This document shows positions 12,361 through 52,665 of a stretch of DNA of 64,000 nt, piece after piece. Made by a program: the position numbers and the translations under genes. The stretch lies in contig NZ_JAAKEB010000012.1 in NCBI RefSeq assembly GCF_011038965.1, forward strand, positions 1 through 64,000, written 5' to 3'. Numbering within the stretch: position 1 is the stretch's first letter; each line of letters begins with the position of its first letter. Under the pieces are notes generated by a model that had not been told where the DNA came from, ran no database searches, and saw only the letters and a program-made list of their open reading frames with translations. This stretch comes from Adlercreutzia sp. ZJ141 (lineage in GTDB: Bacteria; Actinomycetota; Coriobacteriia; Coriobacteriales; Eggerthellaceae).

Positions 12361-12395
12361 AGGATAGACAATAGGCTGTCCCTATTGTCTATCCT
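12361..12395. repeat. Perfect 15-bp-arm palindrome
   Basis: AGGATAGACAATAGG (12361-12375) and CCTATTGTCTATCCT (12381-12395) flank a 5-base loop CTGTC. It ends six bases past the stop of the gene at 12401-12637 and could also terminate it, although no T tract is present. Confidence 0.8.
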
Positions 12396-19566: not shown

Positions 19567-19634
19567 AAACCGCCGTCAAGTGCCCCTTTCTGGCCACTTT
19601 TCCCAAAAGGTGGCCAGAAAGGGGCACTTGACGG
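19567..19634. repeat. Long palindrome with 24-bp perfect arms
   Basis: The left arm (19573-19596) starts CCGTCAAGTGCCCCTTTC; the right arm (19611-19634) ends GGGGCACTTGACGG. The stem extends inwards four or five more pairs. It starts with the same AAACCGCCGTCAA end as the neighbouring unit. Confidence 0.85.
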
Positions 19635-20932: not shown

Positions 20933-20949
20933 GTAAAGCGGTGACAGAC

Positions 20950-21510
20950 ATGAGAAAAGTTATCGCAAGTATAACCCTCGCGATCCTGATGTGCTTAGCG
21001 TTGTTCGCGGGATGTGTGAGTGCTCGCAATGATAGCGAAAGTGCCACAAGCAACCCAAATGCGAATACATCGGCAGTATCCCAAAGTGATGAGCATTCGA
21101 GCTCAAGCGATGCTACTTCTCATGCAAGCATAACCAAGGAGGATGGCATGAGCCGATCAGGTTCAACAGCGTTTTTGACAATCAACGGGTCTCAACTTGC
21201 AATCGAGCTCGCAGACAACGATACCGCCGCCGCTTTTGCGGCGATGCTGCCCATGCAGGTAGAGATGTCAGAACTCAATGGCAACGAGAAGTATGCTTAC
21301 TTGGGCGAAACGCTCCCATCGAACGCGAGCAATCCCGGCACCATAGAAGCCGGAGATTTGATGCTCTATGGAGACAACTGTCTGGTTGTGTTCTACGAGT
21401 CGCACCCAACAACCTATTCATATACGCGGATCGGGAAGATCACCGATGCGTCAGGTCTGAAAGCCATAGTCGATAGCGGCTCTGTAAATGCGAGCTTTGC
21501 TTTAGATTGA
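20950..21510 (+). CDS. Lipoprotein with cyclophilin-like domain
   Basis: A 186-residue exported lipoprotein. The signal peptide MRKVIASITLAILMCLALFA ends in the lipobox FAGC; a serine- and asparagine-rich linker of about 55 residues follows, then a cyclophilin-like domain (IELADNDTAAAFAAMLP, and LMLYGDNCLVVFYES). It is thus a surface-anchored paralogue of the first gene in this operon. I prefer ATG 20950, with GGTGA five bases upstream, over GTG 20941. A perfect 43-bp-arm palindrome follows the stop within ten bases. Confidence 0.82.
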   Translation: MRKVIASITLAILMCLALFAGCVSARNDSESATSNPNANTSAVSQSDEHSSSSDATSHASITKEDGMSRSGSTAFLTINGSQLAIELADNDTAAAFAAMLPMQVEMSELNGNEKYAYLGETLPSNASNPGTIEAGDLMLYGDNCLVVFYESHPTTYSYTRIGKITDASGLKAIVDSGSVNASFALD

Positions 21511-21519
21511 TGATTGGAC

Positions 21520-21611
21520 GGGACAACGGGGACACTGATAATGGGTGATGATTCTCACAACTGCATCCAGTTGTGAGAATCATCACCCATTATCAGTGTC
21601 CCCGTTGTCCC
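21520..21611. repeat. Perfect palindrome with 43-bp arms
   Basis: The left arm (21520-21562) begins GGGACAACGGGGACACTGAT; the right arm (21569-21611) is its exact reverse complement; the loop is GCATCC. It separates the convergent lipoprotein and ABC-F genes. The GGGACAACGGGGAC end resembles REP/BIME elements mobilised by RAYT-type transposases in other bacteria. It may also act as a transcription barrier. Confidence 0.92.
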
Positions 21612-21631: not shown

Positions 21632-23119
21632 TTATTCAACCCGCAATTCAGTCGCACCCTCATTTTGCTTCGTCTCCCATTTGACTTGTGCCACCGCATT
21701 CGACAGCTGTCTATCATGCGTAACCAACAGAAACGCGCCAGGAAAGCTGGTCAGCATTTCTTGCAGCGCTTCGATAGAACCAACATCAAGATGATTTGTC
21801 GGTTCATCGAGTATGAGGAGGTTAGGATTCGCTACGAGCTGCTCGGCAAGCATAAGCTTGCGGAGTTCGCCTGGACTCAGATCGTCACCATCGAGCAGCT
21901 TGTCGGGGTCGGAATTCAATCGCGCCACAATGGAAAGAATGCGGCCTCTTATCTCCTGGGTCTGATCTCGAAGATGCGCCAAGGCCCGTTTGCGCTCACC
22001 CGGTTCGACATCCTGGGGGACATACGCCACTTTGACGATGTCAGGGACTGATTCGACGATGCTTTGCACCACGAGGCTCTTGCCTGTTCCGTTCGCACCG
22101 GTCAGCACCACGTGATCCGTTGGCAAAATCCAAAGCTCCGGTACGTCTATTGAAAACTCTCCTGCAGACAGTCGCGTGGCCTCCAGGTGCACCACAAAGC
22201 TTGAGCGCGCAACAACGCCGAACTCGCCAATACGATGATCGTATCGCTTTGAGACGGTTCTTTTTGAAAGCTCTGCCTCGGCTTTTGCGAGCCGTGCGCT
22301 CATGTTGGACGAGAGTTTTCCCGCCACTCCGTCCTTTCCAGAGAATATGGCGAGCCCTATCTTCTCACGTGCATCACTGTCGTTTCTGGCCAGATTGCGT
22401 TTGCTGCGCTTGCTTTTCTGGCGCGACGCCTCTTCACTCCTGCGCTGGGCTTCCGCTTTCAAGCGCTTCGCTTCGTGAGCGGCTTTCTCACGACCCCTGA
22501 TCGCGGATGCTTGCTCGCTCGCCGCCTGATCGCTCGCCTTTGAGTACCCGCCGGGTCGCATGGTCCAGCATGCGTCCTCACACATCAGGCTCTGACTCGC
22601 AAGACCATCCAGCAGATCCCTGTCGTGCGAGATGAGGATTCCGATGCCGTCAAACGAAGCGAGTGTCTTCTTCACGATATCGCGTGTGGCAGCGTCGAGA
22701 TCATTCGTCGGCTCGTCCATAACGAGGACATCAGGGCGCACAGAGAGAGCGCATGCGATCTGGAGCCGCTTCTGCTGACCGCCCGAGAGCGTATCGTAGC
22801 GCCAGAACCAATCGTCTTCGATGTGAAGCAGCGCTCTTGCCCGCCGCGCATCCTGACCCCAATCCGATGCGAGGTCGAAGAGATTCTTCGGCTTTTGAGT
22901 CGAGTCCTGCTGGCAGTATGCCGAGTAGAGCTTCGGATTCACTGTCCCTGAATCGGGCACAATGATGCGTGCAGCGATACGGGCGAGTGTGCTTTTCCCG
23001 CATCCGTTGTCGCCGATAATGCCCGTCCATCCCAAAGGGAACGTTGCGCTAATGTCGTTGATGGCAGGTGATGCCGTACCGGGATAGGTATAGCTGATGT
23101 GTGTGAGATTCAGTTGCAT
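21632..23119 (-). CDS. ABC-F family ATPase (ribosome protection or translation factor)
   Basis: A 495-residue protein with two ATP-binding cassettes and no membrane segment. Cassette 1: Walker [10 protein letters not shown], signature [10 protein letters not shown], Walker [13 protein letters not shown]. Cassette 2: Walker A GANGTGKS, signature LSPGELRKL, Walker [14 protein letters not shown] basic, charged linker between them (about residues 205-270, rich in K, R and E) fits the ABC-F interdomain arm region. Such proteins bind the ribosomal E site and act either in housekeeping translation or antibiotic resistance. The long leader with a short reading frame suggests inducible expression. AAGGAG lies six bases before the start. 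Confidence 0.88.
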
Positions 23120-52628: not shown

Positions 52629-52665
52629 CTTGTCCCTCCTGCCTGGAACAGGCAGGAGGGACAAG
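52629..52665. repeat. Perfect 16-bp-arm palindrome between the HAD gene and proS
   Basis: CTTGTCCCTCCTGCCT (52629-52644) and AGGCAGGAGGGACAAG (52650-52665) enclose GGAAC. A T tract (GCATTTTTG) follows on the plus strand only, while the gene that ends here (proS) is read on the minus strand. It may be a REP-like element that also works as a terminator. Confidence 0.8.

Follow-up and report, generated by a model that had tools for sequence, protein, structure and literature searches.

The palindrome and its setting

The window, meaning the whole stretch of DNA that was analyzed (64 kb, positions 1 to 64,000 of contig NZ_JAAKEB010000012.1 of Adlercreutzia sp. ZJ141), contains a perfect palindrome between two genes, for a Cyclophil_like2 protein and an ABC-F family ATPase, that converge on it (Table 1). 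A sequence-only reading had already placed the site between convergent genes, which is borne out, and had its outer coordinates exactly right; its 43-base arms and 6-base loop are corrected here to perfect arms of 44 bp and a 4 nt spacer. The palindrome takes up 92 of the 121 nt between the genes, leaving 9 and 20 nt to the gene ends; the complement of the ATPase stop codon begins at 21632.

Table 1. Parts of the palindrome and neighboring genes, in window coordinates.
Feature	Positions	Strand	Basis
Cyclophil_like2 (PF18050) protein gene, converging on the palindrome	20941–21510	+	domain match
Whole perfect palindrome, 92 bp	21520–21611	.	sequence, DNA fold
Left head, GGGACAACGGGGAC, common to the transposase-associated repeat family	21520–21533	+	head matches in genomes
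Inner left arm, 30 bp, this locus only	21534–21563	+	arm searches
Spacer CATC, 4 nt	21564–21567	.	sequence
Inner right arm, 30 bp, mirrors the left one exactly	21568–21597	-	arm searches
Right head, GGGACAACGGGGAC inverted	21598–21611	-	head matches in genomes
ABC-F family ATPase gene, converging on the palindrome	21632–23119	-	domain match

Folded as single-stranded DNA, the palindrome has a predicted energy of -57.1 kcal/mol, compared with a mean of -15.5 for shuffled sequences (z = -15.7), none of 200 of which was as stable. It is by far the longest perfect inverted repeat of the window, the next having 25-bp arms (loops up to 60 considered). A known RNA family was considered and rejected, the only matches being sub-threshold ones to generic hairpins (miRNA, snoRNA). 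A second long perfect inverted repeat lies 2 kb away (19573–19634), with 25-bp arms, a 12-nt loop, GGGGCAC within the arm and a series of T's after it; it may be a further palindrome of TIR type or else a terminator.

Distribution of the head and of a 29-bp unit

No second copy of the whole palindrome was found in its own genome (2.29 Mb in 57 contigs). The inner arm is as restricted: a 24-mer from it, with up to three mismatches allowed, occurs in one of 138 family genomes, that one being its own, and none of its 18-mers was found exactly in a wider set of genome contigs, which may not include its own record. The genome-wide search proposed in the sequence-only reading thus returned the 43- or 44-base arm only at its own position, and what is repeated is the 14-bp head. 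Of GGGACAACGGGGAC there are 12 exact copies at seven loci in the own genome (the window, C10, C11, three on C23, and one on C37) and no copies of its reversed control. It is present in five of the 80 genomes searched, its own included, with 13 copies in G001. Among the relatives, no second genome of the genus turned up.

The other copies in the own genome are mostly 29-bp units, GGGACAACGGGGACGTAGGCTATTGTCCC and close variants, which occur alone, in tandem, or paired as inverted dimers whose centers differ; the palindromes at C10, C11, and C54, for example, have perfect arms and the same ends around different centers. The window palindrome has only the head in common with this unit, the 30 bp behind it being different, and it is not among the matches of the unit model (R1). 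Similar heads are followed by different inner parts in different species, as in a dimer of G044 (L198), which has the head of the window copy and another inner part. The model has 76 matches in G047. An 8-bp stem inside the unit carries no weight here because its covariation is weak: 79.3% of cells were paired vs. 76.3% in shuffled alignments (4 of 500 shuffles as high), and pairs changed on both sides numbered 3 vs. 2.0 (107 of 500). At the ends of some elements (L005 on C10, and L256) heads are found in tandem, in steps of about 9 bp (AACGGGGAC). Shorter perfect hairpins at 12361–12395 (GACAATAG...CTATTGTC) and 52629–52665 (CTTGTCCC...GGGACAAG) of the window are reminiscent of pieces of the 29-bp unit.

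Transposase genes flanked by the unit

When genome contigs were scanned for bases 1 to 18 of the unit, eight stretches matched, six from Adlercreutzia faecimuris JBNU-10 and one each from an Eggerthellaceae MAG and a Coriobacteriaceae MAG. In one of the A. faecimuris stretches (L256), two inverted copies of the unit about 0.9 kb apart have a Y1_Tnp gene between them, encoding a transposase of 284 aa (42.4 bits, against a cut-off of 23). The left copy is identical to the own-genome unit at 29 of 29 letters; the right, inverted one differs in a few. Such units likewise flank a transposase gene in G001, whose product is 53% identical to the A. faecimuris enzyme, and another in G048, there with CGGACAACGGGGACAGGTGTTATTGTCCG. 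More generally, flanking inverted repeats (score of at least 15) were found at 19 of 28 transposase loci, compared with 0.09% of shuffled flanks; there were 30 loci in all, two short ones being left out of the scan.

The enzymes of A. faecimuris and G001 both stay under the curated cut-off of 80 bits for NF047646 (REP-associated tyrosine transposase), with scores of 58 and 61.5 bits, which agrees with membership in the TIRYT branch without proving it. TIRYTs have HUH and Y---NP motifs and a C-terminal HTH; both of these enzymes contain YIHQNP, with H-V-H in the G001 enzyme and H-T-H in that of A. faecimuris. By eye their conserved C-terminal stretch is HTH-like; Pfam listed no HTH at E 0.01, and the A. 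faecimuris enzyme had no sequence match in the PDB at the same threshold.

The search for tyrosine transposases of the TnpA-REP family that had been proposed along with the arm search found no cognate Y1 transposase in the own assembly (57 contigs, 98.59% complete), where a gap could hide one; a single empty search of this kind shows little by itself, though the G001 protein did match 24 of 60 genomes when searched by the same route. Two Y1_Tnp matches in the own genome were set aside as fragments rather than unit-bearing genes; one adjoins an unrelated transposase gene, the other lies where a contig starts. Since no cognate enzyme is seen, the window palindrome is probably now stranded. A single related transposase was found in G047 (L263, on G047:C10), and the repeat at its flanks is a different one (CTGACAAAT...), which leaves the numerous G047 units without an apparent partner.

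Arm identity and sites shared by sister species

Perfect arms had been taken in the sequence-only reading to imply recent origin or active gene conversion. Within dimers, the two units are much more alike than units of different dimers. In G001 (10 dimers) the mean number of mismatches in 29 positions is 0.50 within a copy vs. 6.48 between copies (none of 20,000 permutations), in G047 (also 10) 0.20 vs. 5.16 (p = 0.0014), in the own genome (five, including that of the window) 2.80 vs. 10.45 (p = 0.009), and in G048, with only three dimers, 1.33 vs. 5.58; these dimers were picked with a model that favors good matches, and a small within-copy difference is likewise expected if dimers move as wholes.

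Individual sites can be followed between G001 and G047, two sister species with about 80–94% identity in the flanks that they share. The first sets of loci had no flanks in common between the two; with more loci, seven pairs with common flanks at the element appeared. In two of them (L182/L227 and L180/L211) an inverted dimer is at the same place in both species, each with its own version of the unit, mirrored in both arms apart from a single base of L211, the copy in G047; at the L180/L211 site the species differ at several unit positions. A third pair (L215/L235) has units in direct order in G001 vs. an inverted dimer in G047. At L245, L207, and L248 the G047 copy, of G047 type, is cut by a contig end, and L214/L232 has no element in the aligned part.

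Other copies bear on how far the symmetry extends. Six G047 dimers (L186–L191) have an identical 29-bp unit around six different 8-nt spacers. Perfect pairing runs on for at least three bases past the ends chosen for the unit in 10 of 29 copies (binomial p = 1.3e-11 vs. an expectation of 1/64), reaching 33 bp in L195, although part of such pairing consists of extra head copies. L195 itself (G048:C82) is a palindrome with perfect arms of 70 bp, in which the mirroring extends outside the units into an outer part that contains T/A runs and looks like host DNA. Homogenization of arms is not universal, since the arms of an own-genome copy (C37:91625, L202) are badly diverged (14 of 29, ungapped); those of L178, L184, L196, and L197 are also imperfect.

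The pattern fits either mirror-copying inside a hairpin or repeated insertion into existing copies. Because arms appear to have changed jointly in relatives, and orthologous sites have unit types proper to each species, the identity of the window arms may reflect either of these processes rather than youth. Of the two explanations first offered, homogenization of the arms is plausible from those of the relatives; recent origin need not follow from their identity.

Proposed origin and alternatives

With a probability of roughly 0.65, the palindrome belongs to the non-autonomous palindromic elements of TIRYT/RAYT kind and is made of two facing, inverted heads of the repeat of a Y1 (HUH) tyrosine transposase. 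The transposase would use the hairpin in single-stranded form, as is reported for TnpA-REP of E. coli, and in this way place or move units. When the hairpin forms during replication, one arm could be copied from the other, by template switch or fold-back synthesis, leaving the arms identical, and the same mirror-copying could have turned some 30 bp of DNA from outside the family into the mirror-image inner arms. For the window copy we infer placement by the transposase and inner arms made by mirror-copying. The head had been likened from the sequence to the end of a REP element mobilized by a RAYT; a tie between these palindromic repeats and a RAYT-like transposase is supported, but they are of TIR/TIRYT kind and not GTAG REPs. 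Several points count against this origin: the window palindrome matches the head and not the full 29-bp unit, no cognate transposase was found in the own assembly, one own copy (L202) has decayed arms, dimers that move as wholes would likewise differ little within a copy, and G047 combines its many unit matches with a transposase that has another flanking repeat.

A possible but doubtful alternative is that the palindrome is a dimer of a separate type of unit, consisting of the head and an inner sequence of its own, which has its own cognate transposase and was moved whole, so that the inner arm is not of local origin. The G044 dimer, in which another inner part follows the head found here, would be a parallel case, as would the variation among species of inner parts behind similar heads, and GGGGACAC in the window fits the published TIR motif GGGGWSAS. 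Against it, neither the own genome nor the 137 other family genomes have a second inner arm at up to three mismatches, and the wider contig set has no exact match to one.

Rather unlikely, and offered tentatively, is a broader proposal in which the palindromes of the family are self-rewriting sites. Adjacent host DNA would be taken up into the two arms by mirror-copying in the hairpin, and older unit types would give way to newer ones in both arms at unchanged chromosomal positions; the sites would thus stay shared among species even as the sequence in them is renewed, and each arm of the window palindrome would be mostly captured DNA.

It is far less probable that the palindrome is a bidirectional transcription terminator, or a protector of mRNA 3' ends, for the convergent genes, with no tie to transposition. 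Its position close to both gene ends and its very stable hairpin would suit such a role; six of 11 copies in the own genome are also between convergent genes in a crude look at longest ORFs, and REPs are described in PMC3733652 as lying mostly between unidirectional and convergent ORFs. Only these 11 own-genome contexts were used because longest-ORF context is unreliable in GC-rich relatives, where 13 of 35 loci fell inside an ORF. Against it, no T-tract of terminator kind is listed at the palindrome, its ends belong to a repeat family tied to a transposase, and it is absent beside the ABC-F orthologue of four relatives (G022, G005, G001, and G016). A conserved terminator, which the sequence-only reading had named as the case that would count against mobility, is rejected on this absence and the lack of a T-tract; termination is unlikely as the origin of the palindrome, and may be a secondary role.

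One presence/absence difference was found between the sister species, at the L188 site, where G047 has an element and G001 has none (L253); a second candidate empty site (L187/L254) was dropped because the alignment was not clean. Many G047 contigs end (L222, L223, L228, L231, L233, L236, L237, L239) or start (L243–L252) in or beside a unit, and own contigs C23, at its end, and C24, at its start, likewise break at one, so the palindromes seem to break assemblies. That misassembly, through a foldback or a chimaeric contig, produced the window palindrome itself is hardly credible despite these many G047 contig ends, since intact, different genes run on at both of its flanks and similar palindromes are present in several separately assembled genomes.

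Comparison with known systems

The palindrome is real and looks like a new member, or a remnant, of a known kind (TIR/TIRYT), with an unusual core. The window copy alone is of modest importance; the concerted change of arms, together with differing units at shared sites, is the part worth following. The family places a TIRYT-type transposase and its repeats in gut bacteria of the Eggerthellaceae, and the two sister species, where each site, unit, and arm can be traced individually, could be used to test whether REP-like palindromes owe their near-perfect symmetry to recent transposition or to arms being continually copied from each other. Among open-licence PMC articles, none was found to join Adlercreutzia with repetitive extragenic palindromes, and two mention TIRYTs.

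The closest system is that of the TIRs and TIRYTs (TIRtrons), in which, as described by Di Nocera et al. (2013; PMC3733652), genes for tyrosine transposases lie between TIRs that carry the GGGGWSAS motif, some of these TIRs being self-complementary and found in dimers and clusters; 20 of 26 TIRYTs are placed in TnpA-REP subclass 2.1 in PMC6006769. The Y1 gene between inverted repeats in relatives and the self-complementary dimers are alike, as is the motif in the window copy, whereas most other copies have GGGGACG, which departs from it at the seventh base. Flanking of a transposase is found for the family unit (in A. faecimuris, G001, and G048), of which the window copy has only the head; its inner arm was found beside no transposase gene in the genomes searched (138 of the family, its own among them, and the wider contig set). 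A cognate transposase in the same genome, usual though not strictly required for TIRs, was not found in the own assembly, and no Eggerthellaceae case was seen in PMC3733652, whose main text mentions none of Eggerthella, Slackia, and Actinobacteria.

With REPINs, dimers in which compensatory changes on both sides were described by Bertels and Rainey (2011; PMC3116915), the family has in common a hairpin-forming inverted doublet, a less conserved spacer, changes on both sides, and a link to RAYTs; the window copy differs in not being a GTAG-type REP and in having a unique inner arm behind its shared 14-bp head. The GTAG REPs and BIMEs of E. coli, with TnpA-REP (PMC8266576), are similar in their hairpin units and in an HUH/Y1 enzyme acting on single strands. 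They differ in that the window palindrome has no GTAG, that own-genome units have it inside the unit and not at its foot, and that the enzymes found here fall under the NCBIfam cut-off for REP transposases. Finally, template-switch correction of quasipalindromes, as treated in PMC7202029, PMC8794818, and PMC8604942, is a general mutation process, here suggested by sequence comparison only, and the likeness lies in its outcome, in which one arm of an inverted repeat serves as the template for the other and the two become identical.
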